In this document: positions 13,151-61,980 of the stretch, piece after piece
Layout of the letters: each line of letters starts with the position of its first letter
How positions within the stretch are numbered: the stretch's first letter is position 1
Source of the DNA: Begonia masoniana
Lineage: Eukaryota; Streptophyta; Magnoliopsida; Cucurbitales; Begoniaceae
Assembly (NCBI GenBank): GCA_022432975.1
Contig: CM039511.1
Span: 19,866,557 to 19,930,556, forward strand
Direction: 5' to 3'
Length of the DNA: 64,000 nt
Notes under the pieces: model-generated
The model's input: the letters and a program-made list of their open reading frames with translations, nothing else
What the model was told of the DNA's origin: nothing
Database searches by the model: none
Made by a program: the position numbers and the translations under genes

Positions 13151-13986
13151 CTATTCATCAGACTGAGGCACAAAGTCCTCATTTTCAGGTTCAGTACCTA
13201 CATCAGAGAGTTCACCTATGAGTCTAAAACTCAGTAAGAACATATATAAATGCAGTGATGCATATGCTATGCATGGACTTTCAGAAATACGGTGACAGTA
13301 CAGTACATTACATTTCAGTGGCAGAGGGGTATAAGTGGGGCTTATAGGGGAACTGGCAGGTGCACGATAGGCACATAACAGATTACAGAAACAGGAACAG
13401 AACAGAACAGACAGAGTTGTACAGTAGGCCAGTCTCCGTCCCACACTTAACCAATACATTTCAGTCAGGTTTTATCTTGCTTAGTTTCAAACCATGTACA
13501 AAAAACAGTTTTTGCATGAACTTTTGGAAAAATCGTGTATGCATAGACATTTACAGTGCTTACAATTTAAAGCAGCAGACAATAGGAGTAAACAGCAGAG
13601 AAGACGAGAAATACAGAAACTCAGAACAAAACTTTAACTTATCTACCCGAAACTTCCCGACAGAAATGAAAACCTAGTACCTTCGTGATGTAGGGCCTTA
13701 AGGGCCAACCTACGGTATGAACTTACCTGTTTGCTGTAGAGTTGATGTTCTTGATCGTCTCGGTAATGTACGAACCTGAAAATGCACGTTCGGAAAATAA
13801 ACAAGCTACAATTGCTAACTAATAACTTGTAGGATATGTTTCTAACTCCATTCAGGCTTCTAGAAATCGATCCAAAGTGTTTTCATCCAAAAACAGTGAG
13901 TTTTTATCCAAAACACCTTAACCCTAAACTCCAACAAAACTCACTTTTAACATGTCCATACTTGTCAACTAGGTTAGATGATTACC
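13151..13986 (-). promoter_or_regulatory. LTR splice cassette in LTR-1
   Basis: Element-sense order: exon 1 ends at 13986 (AAAAG|GTAAT); internal exon 13775-13727 (49 nt, TTTTCAG|G to CAAACAG|GTAAGTT); hairpin TGAGT/ACTCA at 13219-13233; acceptor TGATGTAG|G, with the next exon starting at 13197 and an open stretch VGTEPENEDFVPQSDE ending at a TAG at 13151. Splicing is predicted from consensus sites, not observed. Confidence 0.6.
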
Positions 13987-14112
13987 TTTTGCTGAAGAAA
14001 ACAGAAGTAAGTAGGAGAAACAAAGTTTTGGAGACTTGGCACCGTCGCTTGGAAGAGAGAAAACAGAGAAGGCAGAAAGATGTTTCACGATGGAGTGAAA
14101 AGAAGGAAGGAA

Positions 14113-14133
14113 GGGGGGGGGGGGGGGGGGGGG
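14113..14133. repeat. Poly-G run (21 G)
   Basis: A 21-base G homopolymer inside the purine-rich exon-1 region of LTR-1. Length is likely variable and may include sequencing error. Confidence 0.9.
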
Positions 14134-14444
14134 AAGAGAGAAGGCATGGCTTTTGCAACAAGTCAGCCATGTGTCAATCATCCATTGGCTTTCTCCCACA
14201 ACCCTAATCTTTACCTAAATAGCCCCTCCTTTGATTTCTAACCAAATAGTTTTGTTTTGGTTGAACATAATTTGGTTTTCCAATTAAGTTGTGACTAAAA
14301 TTCTTCGATCCGTTTTCTCCAAAAATCCCCTCTTCTGTAAGGTATTATAAAACTTCAAATAAAATACGCATTTTATTAATGGCCAATAAATTCTATTTCA
14401 ACAGTTTAAGGAATAATTACATGGCAAAAATGCCGGGTGTTACA

Positions 14445-17128: not shown

Positions 17129-17750
17129 CTATTCGTCGGACTGAGGCACAAAGTCTTCATCCACGGGATCCGTACCTACATCAGAGAGTTCAACTATGAG
17201 CTTAAAGCTCAGTAAGAACATATAAAAATGCAGTGATGCATATGCTATGCATGAACTTTCAGAATATGGTGACAGTACAGTACATTACGTTTCACTGGAA
17301 GAGGGGTATAAGTGGGGCTTATAGGAGAACAGGCATGACAAAAGTGCAGTATCAGGCACTAGCAGAGAAACGGTACAGAAATACATAATAGAACACCAGT
17401 CTCCGTCCCACACTTAACCAATACATTACATTCATATTTTTATCTTTCTTAACTTCAAACCGTGTACAGAAAATATTTTTGCATGAACTTTCGGGAAAAT
17501 CGTGTATGCATGGACGTTTACAGTGTTTAAAATTAGAACAGCAGGCAACAGAAATAACACAACAGAACCTAAAGAGAAAAACAGACGACTCGGAATATAA
17601 CTCCAACTTATCTACCCAAAACCTCCCGACATAAGTAAAATCCTGGAGTCTCCGTGATGTAGGGCCTTAAGGGCCAATCTACGGGTATGAACTTACCTGT
17701 TTGCTGCGGGGTTGAGGGTCTTGAACGTGTTGCCTCGGTGATGCACGAAC
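17129..17750 (-). promoter_or_regulatory. LTR splice cassette in LTR-2
   Basis: Internal exon 17750-17697 (54 nt, TGTATAG|G to CAAACAG|GTAAGTT); hairpin TGAGC/GCTCA at 17197-17211; acceptor GATGTAG|G with the downstream exon at 17175; open stretch VGTDPVDEDFVPQSDE ending at 17129. The exon-1 donor (GAAG|GTAAT) is across the GYP-1 insertion at 32680. Compared with LTR-1 the hairpin's last pair changes from T-A to C-G. Confidence 0.6.
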
Positions 17751-18399
17751 CTATACATGCATGTAAAGAAAATATACAAAGCTGCAAATGCTAACTAACA
17801 ACTTGGTAGGGCATGCTTCAACTCCTTTCAAACCTTTAGAAAACGAAACAACGTGTTTTCATCCAAAAATAGTGAGTTTTCTCTATAATACCTTAACCCT
17901 AACTTGAACAAAACTCACATTTTTAACTTGTCCAAACTTGTGACGGCCCGAGACCCGATTCCGACTGGAATCTGAGAGCCAAGCCATCACTCCGGGACAT
18001 AACAGAAAAACACAGACTATATATAAATTTTAAACTTTTAGAACGTTACGGGGAGAAGAAACCTTCTCTGGAAATGGGACTGGATGACATATGTATAAAA
18101 CTGGATGACAATTGCGGTTCAAAGAACAGAAGACAGAGGACTTTTATAAATCGAACCTTTAAAACTTCTCAAAGAGAGAAGACTTTCTCTGGATTTTAAA
18201 AAGAACTGGGAGCTAATTTATAATCGGATCACAGAAGTGAATAACAGAAGAGACTGGGAAGAACAGGGAACAGAAAAGGGATGATGAAAATAAATAAACA
18301 GAATAAACAGGAATAAAGGCGGGAAAACATAGGCAGAAGACTGGAGGAAGAAGTGGATTTTTAAACAGATGTGAATAAACAAAGGCAGCGATGGATATG

Positions 18400-18960
18400 A
18401 ATTTTAAAAGCAACGGTGGATGTGAATACGACAAAAATGAACAGTGGCAGCGGTGGATGTGAATAAACAAAGGCAGCGATGGATATGAATTTTAAAAGCA
18501 GCGGTGGATGTGAATACGACAAAAATGAACAGTGGCAGTGGTGGATGTGAATACGACAAAAATGAACAGTGGCAGCTGTGGATGTGAATAAACAAAGGCA
18601 GCGGTGGATGTGAATTTTAAAAGCACTGGTGGATGTGAATACGACAAAAATGAACAGTGGTAGCGGTGGATGTGAATACGACAAAAATGAACAGTGACAG
18701 CGGTGGATGTGAATACGAAAAAATAGGTGACGTCAGGCAGATGATGTAAATTTTTAAGGCAACGGGGTACGCAGGCAGAAGTGCACTGTTTACCGGTGGA
18801 TGTGAATACGACAAAAATGAACAGTGACAGCGGTGGATGTGAATACGAAAAAATAGGTGACGTCAGGCGGATGATGTAAATTTTTAAGGCAACGGGGTAC
18901 GCAGGCAGAAGTGCACTGTTTACCGGTAGATGTGAATAAGACATAACAGATGACGTCGGG
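18400..18960. repeat. Short set of 37-bp-type repeats in GYP-1 3' LTR
   Basis: About ten irregular units built from GGTGGATGTGAATACGAC, spacers such as AATAAACAAAGGCAGCG, and two TGACGTCA sites (about 18728 and 18858). This is the unexpanded counterpart of the array at 27986-29485. Confidence 0.8.
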
Positions 18961-19630
18961 CGGAAGATGAAATTGTAGAGACAGCGGTGGATGCAGTTTT
19001 AAACGGGCAGCGGGCAGCGGTGGATATGATTTTACAAGTAGCAGTGGACGTGATTTTTAGAACGGGCAGTTGTAGAAGTGAATTTAAAGCAGTGGTGGAT
19101 AAGGATAAACTGGGCGGGCGATGTAGTTTTAAAGGCAGAAATTGACAACTTTTGACAGGATTACATAAAAATAGAAATCGTAAAAACAGAAAGTGTGAAA
19201 ACTTCACACTTCTGAAAAATGATTCACAACATGATTCTTGGGCATATCAAGAAAACACGACAGAATTCTAAGGAAACAGATTGCATGGATAACTCTAAAA
19301 TTTGAGACCATCCATGCACAACCTAAAAGAGAAAATATTCCAAACAAATTCCAGAATACTTTAGAACATAAATTCAACTGTCAAATACAGCGGTTTTAAA
19401 ACTTAAACATCAGAACTTATACATTGTTTTAAGATCTGGAAGACTGTATAGAACTCGATATACATTTTCAAAACTTCACCAGACAGGGGTTTTCAAACAT
19501 CAACGCACATCCTATACACCAGTTTCAAATTTCAAAAGTTATACAGGACTTGACATAATTTTAAAATACCCTCACAGAAACAGAATGTGTCTGGCTGCAG
19601 CAACCAACCCCCATGAGCTCGATCCGCCAA

Positions 19631-20458
19631 CTACATCAAATCATCATCTTGAGGCACAAAGTCCTCATCCACGGTTTCAGTACCTACATCAGAGAGCTCA
19701 CCTATGAGTCTAAAACTCAGTAAGAACATATAAATGCAGTGATGCATATGCTATGCATGAACTTTTCAGAATACAGTGACATTACAGAACATTGTTTTTA
19801 TCTGTCAGAGGGATATAAGTGGGGCTTATAGGGGAACTGGCAAGTGCACGACAGGCACATAACAGATTTACAGAACAGAACAGACAAAGCTGTACAAAAC
19901 AGTAGGCCAGTCCCCGTCCCGCACTTAACCAATACATTACAGTCAGATTTTATCTTTCTTAACTTCAAAACCGTGCACAGAAAACTTTTGCATGTCTTTC
20001 GGGAAATCGTGTATGCATGAGCATTTACGGTGCTTAAACGTAAAACGACAGACAACAGAAATATTACAGCAGAACGTAAGGTGTGACACAGATAACTCAG
20101 AACTTAACTCTAACTTTCTCTACCCGAAACCACCCGACATACGTAGTACCTAGTATCTCCGTGATGCAGGGACTTAAGGGCCAACCTACGGATATGAACT
20201 TACCTGTTTGCTGTAGAGTTGATGTTCTTGGTCGTCTCGGTTATGCACGGACCTGTACATACAGAGAATAAACAAGTTGCAAATTTTAACAAATAACTTG
20301 TAGGATATGCTCCTAACTCCATTCAGGCTTTTAGAAAATAAACTAACATGTTTTCATGCAATAACAGCGAGTTTTCTCCAAAATATCACAAACCCTAAAC
20401 TTCAACAAAATTGTCATTTTAACCTGTCCAGACACGTTAGCATAAGCAGATGCTTACC
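19631..20458 (-). promoter_or_regulatory. LTR splice cassette in GYP-1 3' LTR
   Basis: Exon-1 donor AAG|GTAAG at 20458; internal exon 20252-20204 (49 nt, TGTACAG|G to CAAACAG|GTAAGTT); hairpin TGAGT/ACTCA at 19705-19719; acceptor GATGTAG|G with the exon from 19683; open stretch VGTETVDEDFVPQDDDLM ending at 19631. The second intron is 520 nt. Confidence 0.6.
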
Positions 20459-20861
20459 TTAGGCAGAAATAGAAGAAAATCAAGGAAGATCGAATGTGCT
20501 TCGATGAGTGATTTTTGTCTAGAAGAGAGGAAACAGAGAGGAAGGGATGAGGTAAAGGTTCACGTAGAAGAGAGGAGAATAGGTAGGTTTCTCAGCAAGT
20601 TATGGACATTTGGCAACCATCTATTGGCTCCCTCCCACCACCCTTAATTTGTAACGACCCCAGTAGGGTCGAAACTAAACCATGACTCTTTTAGAATTGA
20701 CCATATATCCTTACCTTCCTTTGTTCTTCCTTTTTTTTTCTTAAATCATAACTTAGTTCAAGACATCACACGTGATTCATTAGGCATCGCCCAGCAACGA
20801 AATACATTACATATCTGCCAGCGGACACGGGCGTTTCACGCGTCTAATTAAAACATCGCTC

Positions 20862-21165
20862 GGTCACTAAACGATAAAACATTACTTATATCATCCGGTA
20901 AAGAAAACACCTACATCGTCCGATCACTAAACGACAAAACATTACTTATATCATCTGGTAAAGAAAACACCTACATCGCCCGGTCACTAAACGACAAGAC
21001 ATTACTTATATCATCCGGTAAAGAAAACACCTACATCGCCCAGTCACTAAACGACAAAACATTACTTATATCATCCGGTAAAGAAAACACCTACATCGCC
21101 CGGTCACTAAACGATAAAACGTTACTTATATCATCCGGTAAGGAAAACGCCTACATCGCCCAGTA
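20862..21165. repeat. Five 60-bp tandem repeats in LTR-3
   Basis: Exact 60-bp spacing. Each unit contains CATCG-CCGGTCACTAAACG, ACATTACTTATATCATC and CGGTAAAGAAAACAC. Copies differ by a few substitutions. Confidence 0.9.
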
Positions 21166-21709
21166 GACACGGGCATCATCCGGTGGACATGTGCAATACA
21201 CGTGACTCACTTACCTCATCCGACAGGAGACTTCATCCGGTGAACAAACGACTAAATACTCTACTTACATCATCCGGTGAGTAAACACTCAACATCATCC
21301 GATGACGTCAGCCGGAAGACTCAATCGTTCAACTTCTATCATTCGACTCCTATCACTCAGCAGTAAAACATGATAATCTTCAAGCAACTTCAACCAACAG
21401 AAAGATACCCGACTCTCATAGATTTCAACTTGATAGGCATAAACTTTAAACAAATAAAAATCATAGACTCATTCGAGATATGTGAAGCGAAAGACTTAAT
21501 TAAGCAGATCATTCTATAAACTTAAATCATTCCTCGAACTCATAGATCAAATAGACAAATCCCAACATCCCAATGTTGTAAAAAGAAATCTCATCCTACT
21601 CAGACTTCAGTCTTTCATAAACCTTACTGACATAATGTGAGCATAACCGCGGGTAAATATCGTCTGCCAGCCACAAATCTCCACCCTGAGTACCTTCCAA
21701 CAACCGAGC

Positions 21710-22767
21710 TTAAACATCCTCATTAACTTTGAGATCCTCATCTGAAAACTCGTCACCTACATCATGAGGTTTAAACTATAAGCCTAATGCTTAGTAAGGA
21801 ATGCAAACTAACATGTATTCATGAATGTACAGGTTAGAAAAACATGTTCTTGATCATTTATCATTCTTGTTTCTGTTCATCGTTTTCATCATATGGATTA
21901 AGGGAGGATTTGTGCCGTAAAAGGGGGGTTGACAGTGATTTTGATCATATTCCCTTTTGGATCGTTTTCATGGTCCCTCTTTGGACTGTGGCATACGTCA
22001 ACCCGCCCCCAACCCTCACTTAATCATGTTGTATAGGATCGTTTTCATACTAATTCTCATATCTTGTTCATGGGGAAAACATGCTCATAAATCATTTTCA
22101 TATGCTTGAGGAGTAAATCATGATGCATGACATAAATGTTCTTAAATCATCAGACTATGGAATCTATCATGCTAGACAGTTGACTTCATAGACTCTAACA
22201 GAACATCACATAACATAGTTCTCAAACATCTGGGAATCATCCAAGTACAAACCATCTTACTAACTTAAAACAAACATTAACATAAGTAACAGACAATAGC
22301 TTAAATAACTCCTAATCATTGTATCAGTTTCTACCTAGCATCCTTATGATGTAGGGCCCTAATGGCCGGGAATCCTACACATTCACTTACCTGGTTTCCT
22401 TAGCAACTTGAGCTCCTTTTCTTCGGACTTCTTCACCTAAAACATTACATTGTAGTAGTTAAAATAAAATTCCTAATAGTCCTAATCACAAATCATCCTA
22501 GAATCTAATAACTAAAGTCATTCCCGAATCCCTTAGTCTAGTTCTCTGTGTGCATTCTGAAATCCAAAACCAAAATAGCTGGGTTCAACTAACGATTAAT
22601 CAAGGTCGGTTATATTAAATTTCCAGAATCGATTCAGAAATGCCATTACCAAACACCGATAAAAATGTTCCTATTATCCGGCCATTGAAGAATCTTGAAA
22701 CATTGGGTTCTAGTTAAAAACAGAGTTCCAAACAACTACACGGCAACTACATTGACTAAATCTTACC
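21710..22767 (-). promoter_or_regulatory. LTR splice cassette in LTR-3
   Basis: Exon-1 donor CGAG|GTAAG at 22767; internal exon 22436-22391 (46 nt, TTTTAG|G to AACCAG|GTAAGT); hairpin TAAGC/GCTTA at 21779-21793; acceptor GATGTAG|G with the exon from 21756; open stretch VGDEFSDEDLKVNEDV ending at 21710. The stem differs at two pairs from LTR-1 yet still pairs fully. Confidence 0.6.
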
Positions 22768-23318
22768 TCGAATGTAGGTTATCGGAGTGGAGGCTGGAGA
22801 AATCGATCGCCAAAGAGGGAATCGCCGGCAGAGAAAAAAAAGCTCTAGAAGCACGGGAATCGCGCAGAGAGAATGTTGGCTACAGTGGCGTTTAAGCGAG
22901 GTTTAAGGTTTTCATTTTCTATTTATATTAATAAGATCCTTCCTAATTACCATTTTGCCACCCCAAAATTAGAAACCAAATAAACCTAGGCATTAAAATT
23001 AAATTCAAGTATTAATAATAGAGGTGACAGTTAATTCCGTTAAAAAAATCACCTGGCAGAGATTGTCGGGTGTTACATAATTGGTTTACCTAATTTGCCC
23101 TCCCATTGGTTTTTAACCAAGGTGTTCTGTTTTGGTTGATTTTTAGTTTGGTTTTCCAATAGAATTATTAGCTAAATTCACCGATCCGTTTTCTCTAGAC
23201 ATCCACTTGGGGTATTACAAAACTCCAATGAAATACGCACTTCATTAATGGCCAATACATGTATATCCCATTTAATTGTTCAAGGAATAATTACATGGCT
23301 AAAATGTCGAGTGTTACA

Positions 23319-26720: not shown

Positions 26721-27771
26721 TGTACCTATAATTGCTGTATGCTGAGCGGTATCATCAACATCCTCCACCATTGCAAAGACTCTATGTACGACCTGATTCA
26801 GTCTCATGTCGGGTATTGGGCAGTCTCGGACGTGATGGCCTTCTTTGCCACATCAAAAACATTGGCCGGTTATGAGTCTGCATTCTCCTCTATGAATTTT
26901 CTGGCACCGCGGGCATGCTAAAAGTTAAGGAGCCCCCATTGGTCTCTTTCCCTTGTCTTGATAAGTGATGGTCTCATTGGGCCTCTTAATGCCCCTGTTC
27001 TGTTGCTGTTGAGTTTGCAAATTTTGACCCCTTTGTTGTTGTTGTTATTGTTGTTGAGGAGCATTATGGGAAAATCTCTTCAATAAATCTCTCTATCTTT
27101 GGGACTTCATTTCTAAGGCCTACAACTGATAAGCCTTGGCCACCACCTTCGTATATGGGGCCTCGTCAAATCCCCCGTATGAAATCCCTCGTAAGAGATC
27201 CAGCTTCAAACCCTAAATAAATTGGTGCACCTTGTTTTTCATCAGTGGCCACCAAATGAGGCGCATAGCGGGATAATGATTCAAACTTGTGAACATATTC
27301 GGCCACTGAACCGTATTGTCGTAGCTGAGAGAATTCAACCAACTTCTCCTTCCTCACACCGCGGTCGAAATATTTCTCGTAAAAGATATTCTTGAATCCT
27401 TCCCAGCTTAATGCCACAGTAGTTGACCGCACTGTGTCCCACCAGAATCCAGCACTCTTGGTGAGATGAAACGTGGCACATGTGACCTTCTTGCTCTCCT
27501 CCACCTTGTCATAGTTAAATATCTGTTCAATCTGCCTAACCCATTCTTTAGCATGAATCGGGTCAGTAGATAGTCCATCGAATGCAGGCGGCTGGAGTCT
27601 TCTGAATCTATCTCCACTGGTGTCACGCGGAGCATTACCATGATTGTTATTTCCGTTATCTTCTCTGGCCATCAAACATTCAACCATGCGAAACTGTACA
27701 CCCACCAATTCGGTTAGTCGGTCAATGGCACGAGAGCTTTCGTTTGACTCTTCCTGATGCCCTCTCACCAT
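26721..27771 (-). pseudogene. GYP-1 gag
   Basis: At 27771-27166 the frame starts MVRGHQEESNESSRAIDRL and contains RFRRLQPPAFDGLSTDPIHA, CATFHLTKSAGFWWDTV and KNIFYEKYFDRGVRKEKL, the standard chromovirus Gag capsid region. It stops near the conserved KFVHGL block. Further down a CCHC zinc knuckle is visible near 26800-26860 but carries a TGA between its first two Cys (CF-stop-CGKEGHHVRDC). The N-terminal 57 codons are duplicated at 29486-29655. Confidence 0.82.
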
Positions 27772-27985
27772 TTCTAAAAAAACCCTATAAATAGAATAAC
27801 CTAATTTAATAAACAGAACTTTTACGAGAATTTAAACACTTACAGTTGGTGGAGCGATCTCACGTGGCGGGTTGCGCAGTCAGACATTTTACAGAATCGA
27901 TTTTAAAACCTTGTTCTCTCTGATACCATAACTGTGACGGCCTGAGACTCGATTCTGATTGGAATCCGAGAGCCAAGCCATCACT
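27602..27985. repeat. Leader duplication, copy 1 (gag start, PBS, LTR edge)
   Basis: 384 bp that recurs at 29486-29869 (offset 1884): the first part of gag, the untranslated leader, the primer site TGGTATCAGAG (minus, 27918-27928) and the first 53 bp of the LTR from TGTGACGG (27933). In this copy the LTR breaks off at 27985 and continues into the repeat array. Confidence 0.9.
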
Positions 27986-29485
27986 GGATGTGAATACGAC
28001 AAAAATGAACAGTGGCAGCGGTGGATGTGAATACGACAAAAATGAACAGTGGCAGCGGTGGATGTGAATACGACAAAAATGAACAGTGGCAGCGGTGGAT
28101 GTGAATACGACAAAAATGAACAGTGGCAGCGGTGGATGTGAATACGACAAAAATGAACAGTGGCAGCGGTGGATGTGAATACAACAAAAATGAACAGTGG
28201 CAGCGGTGGATGTGAATACGACAAAAATGAACAGTGGCAGCGGTGGATGTGAATACGACAAAAATGAACAGTGGCAGCGGTGGATGTGAATACGACAAAA
28301 ATGAACAGTGGCAGCGGTGGATGTGAATACGACAAAAATGAACAGTGGCAGCGGTGGATGTGAATACGACAAAAATGAACAGTGGCAGCGGTGGATGTGA
28401 ATACGACAAAAATGAACAGTGGCAGCGGTGGATGTGAATAAACAAAGGCAGCGGTGGATGTGAATACGACAAAAATGAACAGTGGCAGCGGTGGATGTGA
28501 ATACAACAAAAATGAACAGTGGCAGCGGTGGATGTGAATACGACAAAAATGAACAGTGGCAGCGGTGGATGTGAATACGACAAAAATGAACAGTGGCAGC
28601 GGTGGATGTGAATACGACAAAAATGAACAGTGGCAGCGGTGGATGTGAATACGACAAAAATGAACAGTGGCAGCGGTGGATGTGAATACGACAAAAATGA
28701 ACAGTGGCAGCGGTGGATGTGAATACGACAAAAATGAACAGTGGCAGCGGTGGATGTGAATACGACAAAAATGAACAGTGGCAGCGGTGGATGTGAATAC
28801 GACAAAAATGAACAGTGGCAGCGGTGGATGTGAATACGACAAAAATGAACAGTGGCAGCGGTGGATGTGAATAAACAAAGGCAGCGGTGGATGTGAATAC
28901 GACAAAAATGAACAGTGGCAGCGGTGGATGTGAATACGACAAAAATGAACAGTGGCAGCGGTGGATGTGAATACGACAAAAATGAACAGTGGCAGCGGTG
29001 GATGTGAATACGACAAAAATGAACAGTGGCAGCGGTGGATGTGAATACGACAAAAATGAACAGTGGCAGCGGTGGATGTGAATACGACAAAAATGAACAG
29101 TGGCAGCGGTGGATGTGAATACGACAAAAATGAACAGTGGCAGCGGTGGATGTGAATACGACAAAAATGAACAGTGGCAGCGGTGGATGTGAATACGACA
29201 AAAATGAACAGTGGCAGCGGTGGATGTGAATACAACAAAAATGAACAGTGGCAGCGGTGGATGTGAATACAACAAAAATGAACAGTGGCAGCGGTGGATG
29301 TGAATACGACAAAAATGAACAGTGGCAGCGGTGGATGTGAATACGACAAAAATGAACAGTGGCAGCGGTGGATGTGAATACGACAAAAATGAACAGTGGC
29401 AGCGGTGGATGTGAATACGACAAAAATGAACAGTGGCAGCGGTGGATGTGAATACGACAAAAATGAACAGTGGCAGCGGTGGATG
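27986..29485. repeat. Array of about 40 copies of a 37-bp repeat
   Basis: The unit is CGGTGGATGTGAATACGAC followed by AAAAATGAACAGTGGCAG. Most copies are identical; rare variants are AATACAAC and two shortened AATAAACAAAGGCAG units (about 28437 and 28869). The near identity implies very recent expansion. Minus frames are open through it for over 500 codons and one is fused to the duplicated gag start, which is an artefact of the unit and not a gene. Confidence 0.93.
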
Positions 29486-29869
29486 CTGAATCTATCTCCA
29501 CTGGTGTCACGCGGAGCATTACCATGATTGTTATTTCCGTTATCTTCTCTGGCCATCAAACATTCAACCATGCGAAACTGTACACCCACCAATTCGGTTA
29601 GTCGGTCAATGGCACGAGAGCTTTCGTTTGACTCTTCCTGATGCCCTCTCACCATTTCTAAAAAAACCCTATAAATAGAATAACCTAATTTAATAAACAG
29701 AACTTTTACGAGAATTTAAACACTTACAGTTGGTGGAGCGATCTCACGTGGCGGGTTGCGCAGTCAGACATTTTACAGAATCGATTTTAAAACCTTGTTC
29801 TCTCTGATACCATAACTGTGACGGCCTGAGACTCGATTCTGATTGGAATCCGAGAGCCAAGCCATCACT
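29486..29869. repeat. Leader duplication, copy 2 (gag start, PBS, LTR edge)
   Basis: The copy connected to the full 5' LTR of GYP-1: gag codons 1-57 (29655-29486, minus), leader, primer site TGGTATCAGAG (29802-29812) and the LTR start at 29817. Sequence looks identical to 27602-27985 over its length. Confidence 0.9.
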
Positions 29870-32651
29870 CCAGGACATAACAAAAAGACACAGACTATAT
29901 ATATATAACTTTTAGAACGTTACGGGGAGAAGAAACCTTCTCTGGAAATGGAACTGGATGACATATGTATAAAACTGGATGACAATTACAGTTCGAAGAA
30001 CAGAAGACAGAGGACTTTTATAAATCAAACCTTTAAAACTTCTCAAATAGAGAAGACTTTCTCTGGATTTTAAAAAGAACTGGGAGCTAATTTATAATCG
30101 GATATCAGAAGTGAATAACAAAAGAGACTTGAAAGAACAGGGAATAGAAAAGGGACGATGAAATTAAATAAACATAATAAACAGGAATAAAGGCGGGAAA
30201 ACATAGGCAGAAGACTGGTGGAAGATATGGATTTTTAGACAGATGTGAATAAACAAAGGCAGCGATGGACATGAATTTTATAAGCAGCGGTGGATGTGAA
30301 TACGACAAAAATGAACAGTGGCAGCAGTGGATGTGAATATGACAAAAATGAACAATGGCAGCGGTGGATGTGAATAAACAAAGGCAGCGATGGAAATGAA
30401 TTTTAAAAGCAGCGGTAGATGTGAATACGACAAAAATGAACAGTGGCAGCGGTCGATGTGAATACGACAAAAATGAACAGTGGCAGCGGTGGATGTGAAT
30501 AAACAAAGGCAGCGGTGGATATGAATTTAAAAAGCAGTGGTGGATGTGAATACAACAAAAATGAACAGTGGCAGCGGTGGATGTGAATACGACAAAACAG
30601 GTGACGTCAGGCGGATGATGTAAATTTTTAAGGCAACGGGGTACGCAGGCAGAAGTGCACTGTTTACCGGTAGATGTGAATAAGACATAACAGATGACGT
30701 CAGGCGGAAGATGAAATTGTAGAGACAACGGTGGATGCAGTTTTAAACGGGCAGCGGGCAGTGGGCAGCGGTGGATATGATTTTACAAGTAGCGGTGGAC
30801 GTGATTTTTAGAACGGGCAGCTGTAGAAGTGAATTTAAAGCAGCGGTGGATATGGATATACTGGGCAGGCGATGTAGTTTTAAAGGCAGAAATTGACAAC
30901 TTTTGACAGGATTACATAAAAAAAAATCGTAAAAACAGAAAGTGTGAAAACTTCACACTTCAGAAAAACGATTCACAACATGATTCTTGGGCATATCAAG
31001 AAAACACGACAGAATTCTAAGGAAATAGATTGCATGGATAACTCTAAAATTGAGACCATCCATGCACAACCTAAAAGTGAAAATATTCCAAACAAATTCT
31101 AGAATACTTCAGAACATAAATTCAACTGTCAAATACAGCGGTTTTAAAACTTAAACATCAGAACTTATACATTGTTTTAAGATCTGGAAGACTGTACAGA
31201 ACTCGATATACATTTTCAAAACTTCACCAGACAGGGGTTTTCAAACATCAACACACATCCTATACACCAGTTTCAAATTTCAAAAGTTATACAGGACTTG
31301 ACATAATTTTAAAATACCCTCACAGAAACAAAATGTGTCTGGCTGCAGCAACCAACTCCCATGAGCTCGATCTGCCAACTACATCAAATCATCATCTTGA
31401 GGCACAAAGTCCTCATCCACAGTTTCAGTACCTACATCAGAGAGCTCACCTATGAGTCTAAAACTCAGTAAGAACATATAAATGCAGTGATGCATATGCT
31501 ATGCATGAACTTTTCAGAATACAGTGACATTACAGAACATTGTTTTTATCTGTCAGAGGGGTATAAGTGGGGCTTATAGAGGAACTGGCAAGTGCACGAC
31601 AGCCACATAACAGATTTACAGAACAGAAATAGAACAGAACAGACAAAGCTGTACAGAACAGTAAGCTAGTCTCTGTCCCGCATTTAACCAATACATTACA
31701 GTTAGATTTTATCTTTATTAACTTCAAAACCGTGCACAGAAAACTTTTGCATGTCTTTTGGGAAATCGTGTATGCATGAGCATTTACGGTGCTTAAACGT
31801 AAAACGACAGACAACAGAAATATTACAGCAGAACGTAAGGTGTGACAAATATAACTCAGAACTTAACTCTAACTTTCTCTACCTGAAACCACCCGACATA
31901 CGTAGTACCTAGTATCTCTGTGATGTAGGGCCTTAAAGCCCAACCTACGGATATGAACTCACATGTTTGCTGTAGAGTTGATGTTCTTGGTTGTCTTGGT
32001 TATGCACGGACCTGTACATACACGTAAGGATAATAAACAAGCTGCAAATGCTAACAAATAACTTGTAGGATATGCTCCTAACTCCATTCAGGCTTTTAGA
32101 AAACAAACCAACATGTTTTCATGCAATAACAGCGAGTTTTCTCCAAAATATCACAAACCCTAAACTTCAACAAAACTGTCATTTTAACCTGTCTAGACAC
32201 GTTAGCATAAGCAGATGCTTACCTTAGGCAGAAACAGAAGAAAATCAAGGAAGATCGAATGTGCTTCGATGAGTGATTTTTGTCTAGAAGAGAAGAAACA
32301 GAGAGGAAGGGATGAGTGTGAAGGTTCACGTAGAAAAGAGGATAATATGTAGGTTTCTCAGCAAGTTATGGACATTTGGCAACCATCCATTGGCTCCCTT
32401 CCACCAACCTTAATTGGTTTACCTAATTTTCCCTCTCATTGGTTTTTAACCAAGGTATTCAGTTTTGGTTGATTTTTAGTTTGGTTTTCCAATAGAATTA
32501 TTAGTTAAATTCACCGATCCGTTTTCTCTAGACATCCACTTGGGCTATCACAAAAATCCAATGAAATACGCACTTCATTAATAGCCAATACATGTATATC
32601 CCATTTAATTGTTCAAGGAATAATTACATGGCTAAAATACCGGGTGTTACA
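29817..32651 (-). repeat. 5' LTR of GYP-1 (2.84 kb)
   Basis: It runs from TGTGACGGCCTGAGACTCG to ACCGGGTGTTACA. The primer site sits directly outside its left end. It contains about eight irregular GGTGGATGTGAATACGAC units (30290-30600) and TGACGTCA at about 30602 and 30697. It is uninterrupted at the place where the 3' LTR holds solo LTR-3. Confidence 0.87.
31379..32011 (-). promoter_or_regulatory. LTR splice cassette in GYP-1 5' LTR
   Basis: Internal exon 32011-31963 (49 nt); hairpin TGAGT/ACTCA at 31453-31467; acceptor GATGTAG|G with the exon from 31431; open stretch VGTETVDEDFVPQDDDLM ending at 31379. The second donor has mutated from CAG|GTAAGT to CAT|GTGAGT, so this copy may have lost exon definition. 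Confidence 0.55.
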
Positions 32652-42487: not shown

Positions 42488-42659
42488 TTTGTGAAGAAAA
42501 CGAAAGAAAACAGAGAGAAGAGCAGCTCGTCGTCGTGAGGAACCCTGGCGTCGCATGAAGGAAGAAGGAGGAGAGGGGAAGAAATGAAGAAGTAAAATGA
42601 GAGGGAGAGGAAAGTCATCTGATGACTTACGTGTAGAGAGAGAGAGTGTGTGGGGTGGT

Positions 42660-49241: not shown

Positions 49242-49380
49242 TTGCTATATTCCTGCACAAGGTTAATTATACTCTTAAATACCTAGTAGCTAAGGTTAAG
49301 GTAAACACTTACAGCTGTTGGAGTACCCCCATGCAACGATTGGCACTGATGAGTAATCTTTTGAACAGTTTAACTGAATG

Positions 49381-49395: not shown

Positions 49396-51423
49396 TGTAA
49401 CGCCCCGAGTTTTCTGAACCCAGTTTGTTACTCGTAAACTCGGATATTACTAAAAAAAAACTTGGACCAAAATTTAAACTTCCTTCAAAATTCAAATTTT
49501 AACGTTTGATAAAATATGAAAACTTGCAGCGGAAATCTTTGAGCAAAATAGAGTTGAGCAAAACTATGTAACAGTGTTTGAATGATCACATAAAATATTA
49601 AGAAAATAATTCGACCGGAAGGGATGAAAGTTTAGGCGTGAAATACTTGAAATTTATGAAAGTCAAACACATCATCCGAAGAACGAAGTCAACCGGAAGG
49701 AACTGACGTAGAAAACAGAAGGTTTTTCCCTGATAACAAGACGACAAAGTTTCGACTACATCATCCGGTCACGAAACGACAAAGTTTCGACTACATCATC
49801 CGGTCACAAAACGACAAAGTTTTGACTACATCATCTGGTCACAAAACGACAAGGTACATCCCACATCCACCAGTGACGTCAGCCGGATGATTTCCTCATC
49901 CGATCGACTTTACTCTATATCCACCGGTGACGTCAGCCGGATGATTTCCTCATCCGATCGACTTTACTCTATAACCACCGGCCGCAAAACGACAAAAGTC
50001 CTACTTATATCTTCCGATAGGCGACAGAACAACAACTCAACTACTCCATGCTACGCAAACACAACTCTAATTACAGAAATGAGATTACTCACATCACTGA
50101 AATCATTTGAATACCATTCTAACACATGCATTACTTAAAACAATCCAGCAAGTGCCATCGTCAAATCTCAGCAGAATACCATTATCAGAAAATTCAAAAC
50201 ATTTTCAAAACATTAAAACAACTACTGTCATGAGGACTCAGCCTATTCAAATCAACACATTGTCAACTTCACCTTTACTCCAACAGACATCAGTTAAACT
50301 GCCTCATCAAATACCAGGTCCGTGGCATGAGTGTGCTCCCCCAACCAGCCTATTCTTCAATGAACTCAGAAGGCTTACCTGCTGTAACTTCTCCACCTAC
50401 ATCACAAAACTCATCTATTAGCCTAATGCTAAGTAAGTAAAGCAGTAATGGAATGAAATGCTGAAACATAAATTCCTAAACATGCAATTTCTACTTTCTC
50501 ATCTCAGTTGCATTCACATACGTTCATAAGCTGATCTGATCCCTCGGTTCCCTTGGGAAGTTGATCAATTTTCCCAAGGTCATACATCCTCTACTCGATT
50601 AAGTGGCGGATTAGTTCCCTTAATAGCTGAACTGATCCCTCTGTTTCCTTGGGAGTGGGATCAATTCTCCCAATGTCATACATCCTCTACTCGATTAAGG
50701 GGCGGATTAGTTCCCTTAATAGTTTGTCTGTCACATACAGTTCATACTTCACTATTCTTACATGAAAATTCATTTTCGTAATCTTTCAAAAACATGATGC
50801 GTGACATACAAAATCATTCTCAATATGCATAACCCTACTGTTTTGTGAAGTAGGCCCGAAGGCACATGCATACTTTACTTACCTGGTCTCCTGCAAAATC
50901 GTTCGGTTTCAACTACTCTGGAAACCCTGCTCACCTATCGTCATAAGCAAAAATACCGATTAGATCACCACTAACCTTATCCTAAATCGTTCTGAAACCT
51001 AAGGGGCTCGTTTGAAATCTCTAATCATCATACACTCTCGGCTCAATACTAAAATCGAACTCAACTCACTCGCATTATTATCAAAATACGCGCATTACAC
51101 TATCTCTGCTATCTAGCCACTAAAATCTCGAGAAATAAAATGGAAAACTCACCTAGTTTGAGGAATGAGGATCGGAGAGGGAAATCGCCTGGAGCTCTGC
51201 TGTGCTTGAGCTGAATACCGAGAAGGAAAATGAGGGAAACAGTGGCGGCTAAACCTCATTAAACCCTCCATTAAATACGTTATCCATTTATAAAATTGCT
51301 AATTACCCTTTTGTCCTTACATAGTTATTAACTAACCTAATCACTTTTCTCCCTCAATTCTTCCATAAAATTAACACATTATAATTAGAAATTAAATTTG
51401 ATTTAATAGAGCTGGGTGCTACA
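49396..51423 (-). repeat. 5' LTR of GYP-2 (2028 bp)
   Basis: It runs from TGTAACGCCCCGAGTTTTCT to GCTGGGTGCTACA. It is 50 bp shorter than the 3' LTR, chiefly from one fewer 57-bp repeat block near 49866-49980. TATA (TTTATAAA) lies at 51287-51294. Confidence 0.9.
50350..51153 (-). promoter_or_regulatory. LTR splice cassette in GYP-2 5' LTR
   Basis: Exon-1 donor CTAG|GTGAG at about 51153; internal exon 50934-50883 (52 nt); hairpin TTAGC/GCTAA at 50418-50432; acceptor GATGTAG|G with the exon from 50396; open stretch VGGEVTAGKPSEFIEE ending at 50350. This is the copy that would be transcribed into the GYP-2 leader. Confidence 0.6.
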
Positions 51424-51658
51424 GTGGTTGGGTTGTTTGGAAACAAGATTAGTGAAGCTTCTTGGAGAAGCTTCGTAATCTAATCGAATTCCGCTTAAAA
51501 TCTCGTACGTTTTAACTCTATCTTTTCGCTCTATTTTCTTAAACTCTTAAATTTTTGGCATCCAAATTCCAATAAAATGTACATTGCATTTATAGCGAAT
51601 TTCTTTCATACAAAGAATTTTTGGGACAATTACATGATCAGAAAAGTCGGGTGTTACA

Positions 51659-51811: not shown

Positions 51812-51819
51812 ATTCACAC

Positions 51820-52908: not shown

Positions 52909-52916
52909 ATTCACAC

Positions 52917-54192: not shown

Positions 54193-54199
54193 GGGAGGA
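54191..54199 (+). other. Polypurine tract of CopD
   Basis: GAGGGAGGA lies directly before the 3' LTR start TGTTAG at 54200, seven bases after the pol stop begins. Confidence 0.8.
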
Positions 54200-54667
54200 T
54201 GTTAGTATACCTACTGTTCACGTTTAGTTTTGTGTTTCCGTTTGTATATTTAGTGACATTTTTTTCATCATTTCGTTTACCTGTATATATGTAAACATCA
54301 GTGCATAGGGAAATGAGTAGAAGCAAAAGTCATTTCACTGTCATTCTCTCTCTCTCTCTCTACTTTGCATCAAAGCTCACCATCTCCTTCCTGCCTTAGA
54401 GAAGAAACAGGGCTTCTGATTTTTCCATCGAAACCAAATGTAGCGACCCTTAATCCCATATCCTAATTTCCTGTATAAATTTTTCATTTTTATAGTACCC
54501 ATAAAATCTTGACTTCTAAATCTCTAAATAAAAAATCCAAATCGTTGAAATCATTTGAAAACTATTCGAAGAAACATATAAATACATGAAACTTAAAAAT
54601 GAAAGAAAACAACAAAACACATCGGTAGGAAATCGTGGGGGCAGAAAGGGCATTTCTGCCTAAAAAT

Positions 54668-54895
54668 GCATGGCCGATCGATCGGCCATTTCAGCCGATC
54701 GATCGGCTGTTGTAAAAATATGGGGGGCGATCGATCGCCCCCATATCAGCCGATCGATCGCCCCCGGCAATCGATCATTAGCCGATCGATCGCCCTAACG
54801 AGCGATCGATCGGCTACCTCTCTGGAAAAACAAGAGAGGTTCCCTCCTACTTGGCGATCGATCGCCCCCCTTGGCGATCGATCGGCAACCTCTCT
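54668..54895. repeat. Nine CGATCGATCG-type palindromes in LTR-5
   Basis: The palindromic core (A)TCGATCGAT occurs about nine times in 230 bp in contexts such as GCCGATCGATCGGC, GGCGATCGATCGCC and GCCGATCGATCGCC, separated by 10-40 unrelated bases. Each can form a hairpin or offer a two-fold symmetric protein site. Confidence 0.88.
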
Positions 54896-55356
54896 GGAAT
54901 TCGTTCTAGAGAGTTGCCTCAACTCTTTTCTTCCTCTTTCCCCTGTACACTTCACCACTTCCTTCACTTTTCCCTTCAACTCCAACACCAAACAACATAC
55001 TAAAAACTTTAACATAAACTTACTCCCACATCCTTCAATTCGCCCATCACTATAAATACGACTCCAAGCGTTTAAAACGAAGTAAACTTCATGAAAACGA
55101 ACTGCGTGGTTCCGTTTGAAAATTAAACATTTTCCCTACAAGATTTATAAATCACCAAGCAGTTCAGTAAATTCCGAAATCATCAAAACATTTCTATTAA
55201 CAACATCAAATCCCAACTAATCCTTACAACAACCTAAATATACTATTTACACATTTTCTACCCAATGTAACCCAAAATACTTACATACGTCCCCACGGGT
55301 CAAATTACGCGTCGACTGCCCAACGCACTCCCACGGGCCATCCTCCTTCAACTTGC

Positions 55357-56373
55357 TCATGCGTCGGGTGGAGGAATATCATCCTCACCTGTTTCGAAGT
55401 CACCTACACCACAGAGATAACCTATGAGCTAAAGGGCTCAGTAAATCTACGTAAATGAAAATGCGTGCTATACGTGCGGAGTTCGTAAAATCATGCATTC
55501 CTTTTTCATTGTTTAGTTACGTAACGGGAGGTGTCACCGGGGGTTGACTCACCAGATAAAGAGGGCACATCTCGTGGTTAGATAGCCCGTTCCATCTGCA
55601 GGGGGAAAACATGCTCCTCCTCTCAGGACAGCCATGTCTGAACCCCACCCCGACGTGACCGGGATTACATGCATTTCATATCTTTTTATTAGTTGTTTCT
55701 TTTCATGAAAACATAACGTGGGAAATTCATTTTCTATGCTTTTCGAAAATATGATATATGAACATGAATCATGCTTAAAGTACGAAACATAGAAAATAGG
55801 GTAAAACCTAGTAAAACATTCTAATACGACAACCATCCTAAGCTACCCATCCAACCTACGCTAAACAATAACTTCATCAATATCCTCGATCAACAACACT
55901 CATCTATGGTGTAGGCCGGATCGGCTAAGCAAAGCACGAAGACTTACCTCGCGTCTGTTGCAATTCAAGCTCCGTCCACGAGCGTTGTTCACCTATGGCA
56001 ATTCACAACAACCGTCATTAAAACCGAGCCTAAATCATCAACCTTGAAAGTTAACGGAACTCCAAGCTAGAGAAAATTTCCTAAAACTCTAATTTAACTC
56101 TTTAAGGCATTTCATCGAGCAATTCATGCTCGTGAATTTCTAAACCTCCATTAATGGAGTTCTCCAAACTTTCAACAACTCAAAACCTCAACAACCCTTA
56201 TTAATCCAACTAACTCTTACCAACAACCATAAATATGCTCATTAGAGCCATAAATACGGTAAACCTATCGATTTCAAATCTTATTTCACATTTTTAACAA
56301 AACCCTAAACGAACCCTAACCGTTTAAACTCTAGAATCGAAATCTATCATCCCAAAAGCGCAAAATCTTACCT
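55357..56373 (-). promoter_or_regulatory. LTR splice cassette in LTR-5
   Basis: Exon-1 donor CTAG|GTAAG at 56373; internal exon 55992-55948 (45 nt, GCCATAG|G to CGCGAG|GTAAGT); hairpin TGAGC/GCTCA with a 6-base loop at 55425-55440; acceptor GGTGTAG|G with the exon from 55403; open stretch VGDFETGEDDIPPPDA ending at 55357. The second intron is 544 nt. Confidence 0.58.
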
Positions 56374-56798
56374 AGGGAGCGAAGACGGAGAAGAAGAGTG
56401 AAGAACGAAATGCCAAAAATGGAACGCCGGTTGTCGGAAGAGAGAATCGCGTCAGAGAGGAGAGGAATCGCCAAGGCTCTCTGGAATGAAATTGCAGAAT
56501 GAGAAATTGTGAAAGGGGGAGGGGATTTGTGATGTTTTTATTAAATTTTGGTTTGCAAAATTACTTAATTTCCCCTCCATTGATTTTCTATTTTGTTTCT
56601 TTACTTACTTCGTTATTTAGTTAACGATTTGGTTTTTTCAAATTTTCTTATTTCATCAATAATTCCAATTTATTGCTAGGGCTCTATTAAAACTTTCCAC
56701 TCGCAAAACAGACTTAATTGGATATATTTACAAAAATTCCATTTTATATTGGAATAATAAAATCTCGTAAAACCGGGTGTTACACCAAAATCGTAACT

Positions 56799-58932: not shown

Positions 58933-58938
58933 AGTTTT

Positions 58939-58956
58939 TGGCGCCGTTGCCGGGGA
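58939..58956 (+). other. Primer-binding site (tRNA-Asp) of Athila-type element
   Basis: TGGCGCCGTTGCCGGGGA, the standard tRNA-Asp complement used by Athila/Tat elements. Confidence 0.92.
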
Positions 58957-59045
58957 CTTTAATATTAATATCGAATTAATTATTTTTTGTTTTACTTTGA
59001 ATTCTATTTATTTTATTTCTTTATTTTCGTGTTATTTTCAGGTGC

Positions 59046-59911
59046 ATGTGTAAAGAAGGAACAACTAATCTTCTCCCACTTAATCTTGAGATCGAGCGTA
59101 CGTGTCGACAACATCATAAAGAGAGAAGAGAAGTTATTCAACCAGTGCGTGTCATCATGGGAGATAACGGGGAAGACAATACTGAAATTCGTCCACTGGT
59201 GAATACTGAGACCCGGACCTTACTGGATTATGTTATACCTACTGTATCCGGAGTGCATTCAGCTATTTGGAAACCGGCCATTGCTGCTAATTTTGAAATT
59301 AAGTCGGGGACCTTGCACATGATTCAACAATCTCAGTTTAGTGGTTTACCTTCTGAAGACCCCAATGATCATATTGCCAATTTTTTAGAAGTATGCGATA
59401 CTTTTAGATTTCACAATGTGGGGGATGATACAGTGAGGTTACGCCTATTTCCATTCTCATTAAGGGATCGTGCAAAGAGCTGGCTTAACTCTCTACCAGC
59501 TAATTCTATTAATACTTGGGAAGAGTTATTTCAGAAATTTCTTTCTAAGTTCTTTCCTTTCGAGAAGACCGCTAAGCTTCACAATGATATAATCAACTTC
59601 AGTCAATTCGATGGGGAAACATTATATGAGGCATGGGCACATTTCAAAGATATGTTACAGAAGTGTCCTAACCATGACCTACCGAAATGGATGCATATTC
59701 AAACATTTTACGTGGGCTTATCTACTTCTACAAAAACTCTGGTCAATGCAGCTGCAGGTGGTGCTTTAATGAGAAAAACTGAAGAAGCCGCTTATGATTT
59801 ATTGGAGGAATTAGCACTTAATAATGACCAGTGTCCAGTGGAGCGATCAATTATGAAGCGCAAAACGGGTACTCCAGAACTCGAGGCTATGAAAGCTTTA
59901 ACTCTACAAGT
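59046..59911 (+). pseudogene. Athila-type gag, truncated by GYP-3
   Basis: An open frame of 289 codons starting MCKEGTTNLLPLNLEIERTC. The Gag capsid domain is clear: AANFEIKSGTLHMIQQSQFS, DPNDHIANFLEVCDTFRF, RLRLFPFSLRDRAKSWLNSL, FLSKFFPFEKTAKLHNDI, FDGETLYEAWAHFKDMLQKC and FYVGLSTSTKTLVNAAAGGA. No stops occur in this part, so it was in good condition when GYP-3 inserted at 59912. It ends early only because of that insertion. Confidence 0.87.
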
Positions 59912-61980
59912 GTAACGCCCCGAGTTATCTGAACCCGGTTAGTCACACAATGCCCGTACATGACTAAAATTTCTACCATATTTTTTTTAAAAAAACTTGC
60001 AGCGGAAATCATTTGAAATGTTAAGGAATAATCGGTCAAAAGAAATAGAAGTTTGAATCGTGAAAACACTTTAAAAGTTGCAGAAGTTAAACGCATCCGC
60101 CGTTGAGTAAAGTCAACGGAAGAAGCAGAAAACAAACAAAATAGAAGACTCCTGCCGATGACGTCAGCCGAATGGAAAACAAAGGACATCTCTCGGTAGA
60201 CTGTATCTACCGGTGACTAAATGACAAAATACACTCTACATCTTCCGATGACGTCAGCCAGATGACTTCCTTCATCCGATCGACTTTGTTCTACACCCAC
60301 CGATGACTAAACGACAAAAGTCCTCCTACATCTACCGATGACGTCAGCACGCATTTGCCGATGGGTTTAACGACAAAACCCCTCATCCCCTTCTTCCGAT
60401 AAGGTAAATTGAATATACCGATCACTAAACGACAAAGCATAATACCCACTCATACCAGTAGGGCAAAATCTACATCATCCGATAGAATAAACGTCATGTA
60501 CTGATGACTTTACTGAGACATCATCCGATGGCTTTACTGAAGACATCTTCCGATAGAATTAAGGGCGACATTTCAACTACTTCTCGATATACATATACAA
60601 CACTAATTACAGAAAGGAATTTACTTACTTCATCAAGACCATTCAGAAACAATTCACATTGTATTGTTCAAACCTAGTAAAACCAACATTTAAAACCCAA
60701 CAGATCACTAGTATCAGAAAAACTCAAAACGTAGTCAAATATTAAAATCTCTACTGTCATGAAAACTAGGCATACTCTGATTAGATTATTACCAACTAAA
60801 CCCCCACCACTGCTGACAACAGTTAACCCGCCTCATCAGTTTACCAGGCCGAGACATGAATGTACTCCTCCAACAACATCTAATCATCTGTTCAATCAAG
60901 AAATTCACCTGCAGTATCCTCAACACCTACATCACAAAACTCATCTATTAGCCTAATGCTAAGTAAGTAAAGCAGTAATGAAATGAAACACTGAAATATA
61001 AATTCCTAAACATGCAATTTCTACTTTCTCAACTCAGTTGTTCATGTTTCGTTTCTGTTCAGATCCCCCTGTGAAATTGGGAGCTGGATCAACTCTCCCA
61101 AAGTATATACATCCACTGGCTCATTAAGGGGCGGATAAATTCCCTTAACAGTAAATCTGATTCACATGTTCAGATCCCCCTGTGAAATTGGAAGTTGGAT
61201 CAACTCTCCCAAAGTATAAATATCCACTGTCTCATTAAGAGGCGGATTACTTCCCTTAACAGTAAAACTGATTCACATAGCTGTTTCAATATGTTCAATC
61301 CTCACTATGCCAACATGCATTCAAATTCATTTTCGTATACTTTAAAATATGATGCACGACATACCGACACATTCCAGCATACAAACCCTAATGTTTTGTG
61401 ATGTAGGCCCAAAGGCACAAGCAAACTTTACTTACCTGGCTCTCCTGGGAATGCTCGGTTTCAAACTACTTCAGAAGTCTGCTCACCTAGGTCATAGAAA
61501 GGATATCAATTAGATTTCTACTAAGCCTCATTCTAATCTATTCAGGAATCTTGGGAAACTAGCTTGGAAGCTTAGTTCATTGTGCATTTCCGATTCAACA
61601 CTAAACCCGAACTCAACTCACTCACAGTATTCCTCGAAACTTCACACATTGTACTCCCTCAGCTATCTAATTGTTAAAATCACAGACAAACTAAGAGAGC
61701 TTACCTAGGTTGAAGGAGAATCGAGTGAGAAAGAAATCGCTCGAAGGTTTTCTGTTGAAGAGCTGAAGGCCGGGAGAGAAATAAGGGAATTAGTGGCGGC
61801 TACCGTGCACTAAACCCCAAATCACTAACCTTAAATACATTATCCATTTTTAAATTTCCAATTACTTTTCTGCCCTTGCCTAGTCATTTATTAACCTAAT
61901 CAATAACTCCCCCAACCCTTCTATAAAAGTACATCATTAATAATAATTTAAATTTTGATTCAATGGAACTGGGTGCTACA
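59912..61980 (-). repeat. 3' LTR of GYP-3 (2069 bp)
   Basis: It runs from TGTAACGCCCCGAGTTATCT to ACTGGGTGCTACA. It holds TGACGTCA sites at about 60158, 60248 and 60339 and dispersed CATC-CCG-T motifs, but no compact array. Confidence 0.87.
60892..61705 (-). promoter_or_regulatory. LTR splice cassette in GYP-3 3' LTR
   Basis: Exon-1 donor CTAG|GTAAG at 61705; internal exon 61486-61436 (51 nt, ACCTAG|G to AGCCAG|GTAAGT); hairpin TTAGC/GCTAA at 60948-60962; acceptor GATGTAG|G with the exon from 60926; open stretch VGVEDTAGEFLD ending at 60892. The second intron is 509 nt. Confidence 0.58.

Follow-up and report, generated by a model that had tools for sequence, protein, structure and literature searches.

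Long terminal repeats of Ty3/gypsy elements in Begonia masoniana carry genomic traces of a probable spliced leader with two introns

The long terminal repeats (LTRs) of Ty3/gypsy elements nested in a stretch of 64,000 nucleotides (nt) of the Begonia masoniana genome (assembly GCA_022432975.1, contig CM039511.1, positions 19,866,557 to 19,930,556; hereafter the window) probably hold a genuine spliced 5' leader, in which RNA that has lost a first intron can be copied and a second intron is the better candidate for RNA sorting. The core of this reading, a spliced leader inside the LTR, had been proposed in a first-pass annotation of the window and is well supported by genomic traces, namely precise copies that lack intron 1 and a change of sequence character at the final acceptor. 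The precise intron-less genomic copies support intron 1 as a spliceosomal intron. Intron 2 is most likely spliceosomal too: it has a strong donor, an acceptor, and a CTTAC resembling a branch site, and the sequence becomes coding-like precisely at its acceptor.

The layout was read in ten window LTRs derived from eight insertions, always on the minus strand. This is the element-sense strand, as had been annotated, since it carries the gag and pol open reading frames (ORFs) of elements B, C, and H (for H, the window includes pol only). In LTR A1, the donor after 13986 (..AAAAG|GTAATC) opens intron 1 (13776-13985), which is followed by a mini-exon of 49 nt (13727-13775) and by intron 2 (13198-13726), whose acceptor TGATGTAG|G leads into exon 3 from 13197. 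LTR A2 has a mini-exon of 54 nt (17697-17750), an intron 2 at 17176-17696 with exon 3 from 17175, and an intron 1 that the nested element B separates into a first part (32657-32679) and a second part (17751-17938); its first donor was located across the nested element, with 32680 as the last exon base (..CAGTGAAG|GTAATT). In the remaining LTRs, intron 1, mini-exon, and intron 2 occupy 20253-20457, 20204-20252, and 19684-20203 (3' LTR of B); 22437-22766, 22391-22436, and 21757-22390 (D); 41982-42485, 41925-41981, and 41320-41924 (F); 44249-44466, 44197-44248, and 43711-44196 (3' LTR of C); 50935-51152, 50883-50934, and 50397-50882 (5' LTR of C); 55993-56371, 55948-55992, and 55404-55947 (G); and 61487-61704, 61436-61486, and 60927-61435 (H). 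The 5' LTR of element B (29817-32651) was missing from the earlier list and has its intron 1 at 32012-32222 (donor 1 at 32223), a mini-exon at 31963-32011 with the damaged donor CAT|GTGAGT, and an intron 2 at 31432-31962, with the acceptor at 31431. The claim that every LTR shares the layout thus stands for the nine LTRs then listed and has to be relaxed for this overlooked one.

All nine listed mini-exons were exact to the base and open with AG|G. Their strong donor reads CAG|GTAAGT in eight of the nine and GAG|GTAAGT in LTR G (55948-55992), and in eight of nine LTRs a first donor of the form AG|GTRA is found 205-504 nt ahead of the mini-exon. Extra AG|GTRA sites lie nearby in A1, the 3' LTR of B, D, and F, so the choice of the first donor is not unique. 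The length range of intron 2 (486-634 nt) was confirmed. The final acceptor, annotated in one form, is exactly TGATGTAG|G in seven of nine LTRs, the others having TGATGCAG|G (before 43710, in the 3' LTR of C) and TGGTGTAG|G (before 55403, in G).

A scan of contiguous LTR stretches, from which the split A2 was left out and for which the distances and the requirement of an ATG-free mini-exon were chosen after the finding was known, recovered the layout in nine of nine at a donor match of at least 8/9 and in seven of nine at 9/9. It was absent from all nine antisense stretches and from the other parts of the window that were scanned (72,896 nt over both strands). Dinucleotide shuffling (1000 shuffles per LTR) reproduced the layout in 0-1.3% of cases. 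These shuffles and controls, together with stretches of the genome preset without regard to motifs (see below), rule out a chance origin of the layout. Furthermore, the mini-exon donor was the best match to the U1 consensus in 10/10 scanned LTR stretches (tied in two).

The composition of the putative exons and introns agrees with this arrangement. Mini-exons contain 12-21% T versus 28-38% in the introns, a contrast seen in 10/10 LTRs for intron 2 and 9/9 for intron 1. Two features of U2-type plant introns were found, namely GT..AG borders with a consensus donor and introns more U-rich than the mini-exon. Upstream of donor 1 there is a stretch rich in C and T and poor in ATG. Across eight lineages (one LTR each), the last 100 nt of exon 1 and the mini-exon contain a single ATG versus 11.7 expected from composition; the corresponding values are 52 versus 51 in intron 1 and 165 versus 85 in intron 2. 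A wider set of 26 dereplicated mini-exons, some of them doubtfully called, contained 7 ATGs in 1311 nt.

The same layout recurs elsewhere in the source genome (795,452,319 bases in 308 contigs). Models of the donor block and of the acceptor block were built from the ten window LTRs only and run on 40 fetched loci, of which 20 (L021-L040, 10 kb each) were taken at round coordinates fixed in advance on contigs C1-C7, without regard to any motif. These 200 kb contained 17 acceptor-block and 17 donor-block matches, and LTRs of this group seem to be very abundant in the genome. In the preset stretches, 13 of the 16 testable acceptor-block matches (17 in total) were accompanied by a donor of at least 8/9 located 440-760 nt upstream, which was 9/9 in seven of the 13, compared with 1/16 on the antisense strand. 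The acceptor bases of 44 blocks with full flanks (window and near-duplicates included) were AG|GT in 42, AG|CT in one, and GG|GT in one. In the donor block the most conserved part is GTAAGT, although the model used for matching itself includes GTAAGT. This conservation would also be expected if U1 binding at the donor served to prevent premature polyadenylation within the LTR, with little or no splicing, which we regard as very improbable, given that neither the conserved acceptor nor the exon composition nor the precise intron-1-less copies described next are predicted by it.

Among 47 donor-block places, the C/T-rich leader lies directly against the mini-exon in three (L001, L016, and L018); these calls of intron-1 loss rest on reading and BLAST, and the edge of the leader was not found in 6/47 places. 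BLAST matches of L016 to relatives bearing intron 1 end at donor 1 and start again at the first mini-exon base, within the two bases GT common to both. The mini-exon border of L001 is exact (its alignment with the relative L022 begins AG|ATCC); toward exon 1, the alignment with L015 ends about 10 bases early, and by reading the end ..GCCTAAG corresponds to element B. L018 has diverged further, and its junction is uncertain. A sister of L016 (L041) likewise lacks intron 1, and in the eight copies fetched alongside it (L042-L049, some of them for altered donors) intron 1 was present by reading. The distance from the donor to the edge of the C/T-rich leader, tried as a test of intron-1 loss, was unreliable alone because it is also short in L046 and L049, which have the intron.

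A junction query predicted from the separated pieces of LTR A2 (..TTTTCTCCAGTGAAG, to 32680, joined to GTTCGTGCATCACCGAG.., from 17750) matched 52 genomic places within 3 mismatches, one of them perfectly, and the reversed pattern matched none. Three of these places fall within 235 nt on C6, a clustering that means fewer loci or events than 52. Four junction copies were fetched (L050-L053), and leader, junction, and mini-exon donor are present in all of them; L051-L053 continue through intron 2 to the normal acceptor and tail, and the LTR of L050 is interrupted before the acceptor. These junctions show the precise excision expected of a U2-type intron. A tree built from 28 sequences of the intron-2 region requires five changes to or from the state without intron 1, at least four of them forced by supported branches, and recombination between LTRs could inflate this count. 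RNA without intron 1 thus appears to have been reverse-transcribed and integrated repeatedly. For intron 1, the 52 junction places and the five state changes contradict the earlier view that the LTR can be copied from unspliced RNA only.

The same junctions could in principle have arisen by microhomology deletion between the AGGT of the donor and that of the mini-exon instead of from spliced RNA, since AG|GT is the sequence at the majority of A-type donors and mini-exon acceptors and such a deletion would leave an identical junction. We consider this origin improbable for the copies as a whole: several separate events fell at one place, L001 has only AG in common, with a mini-exon starting ATCC, and the fused stretch of exon 1 and mini-exon that precedes a retained intron 1 in L004-type copies suggests a template switch with spliced RNA. 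Copies with this organization (L004, L005, L008, L011, L013, and L043) have an exon 1 whose end resembles fused exon 1 and mini-exon, followed by intron 1 and a second mini-exon, and they look like products of template switching between spliced and unspliced RNA. In L050 (G000:C6:45455500-45456700), the fused exon 1 and mini-exon form a tandem repeat of about 101 nt per unit.

Intron 2 behaves differently from intron 1. Its donor is present in 8/8 intron-1-less copies, four of which were found by the donor itself and four by the junction of exon 1 and mini-exon, and the six of these eight that could be read to the acceptor have kept the intron. Genome-wide searches with two types of mini-exon|exon-3 junction gave 0 places each, although absent copies do not equal absent splicing. 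Within 361,509 nt of sequence (duplicate loci counted), neither junction occurred, compared with 6 and 16 occurrences of the unspliced acceptor patterns. Either intron 2 is kept in the RNA that replicates, or it is never spliced. The first is likelier because of the donor, the acceptor, and the coding change at the acceptor. Given that no intron-2-less copies were detectable with these junctions, intron 2 is the better candidate for separating copied from translated RNA. The proposal that splicing divides packaged from translated RNA can therefore be upheld as possible for intron 2, for which no junction copies were found in these searches, and has to be dropped for intron 1, whose spliced forms appear to have been copied and integrated.

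The leader introns might instead serve mainly to boost expression, through intron-mediated enhancement or nuclear export, with no sorting of RNA. On direct reading, exon 1 and intron 1 do resemble an ordinary plant 5' untranslated region (UTR) and leader intron, and RNA without intron 1 is still replicated, as such a role would allow. Enhancement alone does not, however, predict the lack of intron-2 loss (two junction types, none found), and we rate it as a serious competitor that is still the less probable explanation.

The sequence character shifts at the final acceptor, as would be expected of a real 3' splice site placed before a coding stretch. In A1, exon 3 starts (13151-13197, minus strand) with GT and 15 codons for an acidic peptide ending at the stop TAG, in a frame common to the families. 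Downstream of the acceptor, in frame (G)GT, 14 codons evolve in a coding-like manner (z=4.0 versus shuffled columns, n=21), both in the A-type (z=3.4, 11 sequences) and in other types (z=2.6, 10 sequences). The tested set comprised 21 of 31 dereplicated sequences, selected because their first stop falls at codon 15 or 17, a choice that favors the tested frame; the other two frames of the same sequences gave no positive signal. The first stop falls at codon 15 in 25/44 blocks and at codon 17 in six, and TAG, TAA, and TGA all serve as stop. Upstream of the acceptor AG, 11 A-type sequences gave no coding signal in any of the three frames (z -0.9, -0.7, -0.6). Neither at 13151-13197 nor at the homologous sites of other LTRs does the acidic frame have a visible start codon.

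A short frame running unspliced through TGATGTAG was attractive at first sight in the A-type, where TGATGTAG|G could lie within a small unspliced reading frame (..D-V-G..) and not be an acceptor. The genomic frame is indeed open across TGATGTAG|G in 10/11 dereplicated A-type copies and in several C-type copies. With no frame of the A-type giving a coding signal ahead of the AG, and with a stop within 15 codons upstream of it in 11/20 other (non-A-type) dereplicated copies, the candidate was rejected and we give this explanation hardly any credence.

It is more conceivable, though still unlikely, that the LTR contains a small spliced protein-coding unit that ends in the acidic tail of exon 3, and not an untranslated leader. 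Such a unit would account for the coding-like first 14 codons of exon 3 and for the recurrent stop at codon 15 with use of all three stop codons, and it would fit the mini-exons, where the tail frame has stops in 10/417 codons versus 21/410 and 18/406 in the other frames and the length is a multiple of three in 15/26. It fits poorly with the ATG-poor exon 1 and mini-exon of the window, the missing in-frame ATG in exon 1 and mini-exon of most copies, the non-significant coding test of the mini-exon itself (26 dereplicated), and the tail-frame stops in the window mini-exons of B, F, and H. A single conserved ORF through all three exons was rejected on the same mini-exon lengths and mostly missing ATGs.

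Just before the acceptor there is a 5-bp hairpin (13219-13233 in A1, minus strand; two of its five pairs covary among the ten LTRs), in which 45/45 cells are paired and six cells show double-sided change; 0/500 shuffles were as high on these two measures, and none reached its covariation score. Another hairpin just downstream of the mini-exon donor (GGCC..GGCC) is visible by eye and was discarded after RNAalifold predicted no pairs. A donor near the end of pol that might feed the LTR exons was also looked for, and no suitable one common to B, C, and H was seen.

Several observations weigh against the spliced leader or its proposed use. The conservation is partly due to descent, as the ten LTRs represent eight insertions in approximately five sequence groups, and the mini-exon donor is damaged in one of the ten. 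Automatic calling at the 47 donor-block places recovered an AG|G mini-exon in 38 and a first donor in 27, and some of the misses are true differences, such as mini-exons opened by AG|A and short first introns. The loss of intron 1 could in part reflect deletion between AGGT repeats at donor and acceptor. With regard to intron 2, most loci with a complete leader were chosen by their donor block and are thus unable to reveal its loss, and just two types of mini-exon|exon-3 junction were searched. Of the five measures applied to the hairpin, two did not exceed the shuffles: for pairs with double change and for further pair types, 158 and 332 of 500 shuffles were as high. The changing positions of the hairpin are third codon positions if the block is read unspliced, and part of its pattern could therefore have another origin. 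Finally, the first 100 nt of exon 3 contain 2-5 ATGs in 10/10 LTRs, so that removal of introns 1 and 2 alone would leave the path to gag blocked.

Taking these points into account, we still favor the spliced leader, and the following course of events would be compatible with it. Transcription would start after a short U3, in the C/T-rich stretch that resembles a plant 5' UTR, and in the RNA leader exon 1 (~100-200 nt) would be followed by intron 1, the mini-exon, intron 2, and what remains of the LTR, with the primer-binding site and gag coming after. At least some of the RNA would lose intron 1 and would still be copied and integrated. Intron 2, with its many ATGs and the conserved hairpin, would stay in the copied RNA, and its removal would commit the RNA to translation, for example if the intron holds a signal, such as the hairpin, that spliced RNA lacks. 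An extra step toward gag may be needed, for which two candidates can be named: a short intron before gag or a donor CAG|GTGAG within exon 3.

Many copies of the C-, D-, and G-types have the candidate donor CAG|GTGAG at 13-18 nt from the start of exon 3. Candidate short introns between the primer-binding site and the start of gag were noted in B and C (29658-29727 and 49253-49312), with similar donors in the two elements and GTAAGTGTTT..AG just before the ATG. The leader behind the primer-binding site also has a match in inverse orientation to exon 3 of the LTR (27844-27889, 29728-29773, and likewise in L011, L016, and L017), possibly reflecting long-range RNA pairing.

More tentatively, and with doubts that exceed our confidence, intron 2 may act as an identity tag of genome-length RNA, with the hairpin as part of a packaging or replication signal and with intron 1 dispensable, such that partly spliced RNA replicates. 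If this is true, RNA that keeps intron 2 would be copied and RNA that loses it would be the mRNA. In plant LTR elements it is still debated how a single transcript can be mRNA and genome at once. With a pair of introns in the LTR and natural copies that lack only the first, the spliced forms that were copied can be read directly from genomic sequence. In addition, LTR promoters of this kind could donate ready-made exons and splice sites to neighboring genes.

The window is a nest of Ty3/gypsy elements whose pol ends are of the SH3_Tf2-1 type. Element C has the chromovirus-type domain order Retrotrans_gag, RVP_2, RVT_1, RNaseH, Integrase_H2C2, SH3_Tf2-1; Chromo (PF00385) matched in H alone, with a score under its cut-off. 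The name Tekay is the clade label of the first-pass annotation. LTR borders were placed by reading LTR ends and flanks, as were the 5-bp target duplications, and all LTRs are on the minus strand. LTR A1 has its sense start at 14444, and LTR A2 is divided by the inserted element B. The 3' LTR of B (17939-20649 and 23078-23318) and its 5' LTR (given above) share the duplication AAACT, and the solo LTR D (20650-23077, AATTA) sits inside the 3' LTR. Solo LTR F (40163-42659 and 51429-51658, GTTTT) is divided by element C, whose LTRs lie at 42660-44737 and 49396-51423 (GTGGT). Solo LTR G spans ~54439-56784 (TTTGG) and LTR H 59911-61980. Directly after the 5' LTR of element B there is TGGTATCAGAG, which we take to be a tRNA-type primer-binding site; the equivalent site in element C is altered.

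Around the primer-binding site and the beginning of gag in element B, an exact duplication of 300 nt (27602-27901 = 29486-29785) and 37-nt tandem repeats (27602-29785) were observed, with related repeats in the LTRs of B, and repeats of 34 nt start at 10501. A gag ORF of another element (59001-59912, plus strand) adjoins the end of LTR H. A minus-strand ORF at 6466-6924 has an NPR1-interacting (NIMIN-like) Pfam match (E 3e-13), and a protein search with it led nowhere, as did queries of IMG/VR viral contigs with pol and two DNA patterns.

In lentiviruses, the R-U5 leader of human immunodeficiency virus type 2 (HIV-2) and simian immunodeficiency virus (SIV) has a single intron, and the acceptors of HIV-1 lie far downstream, in viral genes. 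Limited literature searches, with subscription papers mostly outside them, found no report of an LTR intron in plant elements, and to that extent the earlier statement that no report was known holds; a functional R-U5 intron is, however, described in SIV/HIV-2 (PMC1766366). According to a review, plant LTR elements are generally intron-free, with exceptions that include Ogre and EVADE (PMC12786077), and the Ogre intron is placed between gag-protease and reverse transcriptase (PMC6317226). A sunflower study with nanopore reads reports spliced elements, with Tekay elements missing from the expressed set (PMC7730604). Like Ogre and the shGAG of EVADE, the Begonia elements would be plant LTR elements with splicing, but the introns of those elements lie in gag-pol and here they lie in the LTR; the search for introns was directed at the LTRs, and neither of the two falls in gag-pol, the location in BARE1, EVADE, and Ogre. 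BARE1, a Ty1/copia element of barley, has spliced and unspliced RNAs with different roles and an intron more U-rich than its flanks, a yardstick that we applied in the same way here, although the BARE1 intron starts in the coding region just past the end of gag (PMC3735527). The leader donor recalls the major splice donor of HIV-1, downstream of which structured packaging elements are located (PMC1766366). Donor and acceptor are, unlike in HIV-1, within the same LTR in Begonia. The closest likeness in position is to HIV-2/SIV, where the intron lies in an LTR-derived leader (R-U5) and is suggested to affect the packaging of genomic RNA (PMC1766366). The Begonia introns are located in the LTR downstream of a promoter-like region and may correspond in position to R-U5. 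They differ from those of the lentiviruses in belonging to a plant Ty3/gypsy group, in forming a pair of introns around a mini-exon, and in having left heritable copies without intron 1.

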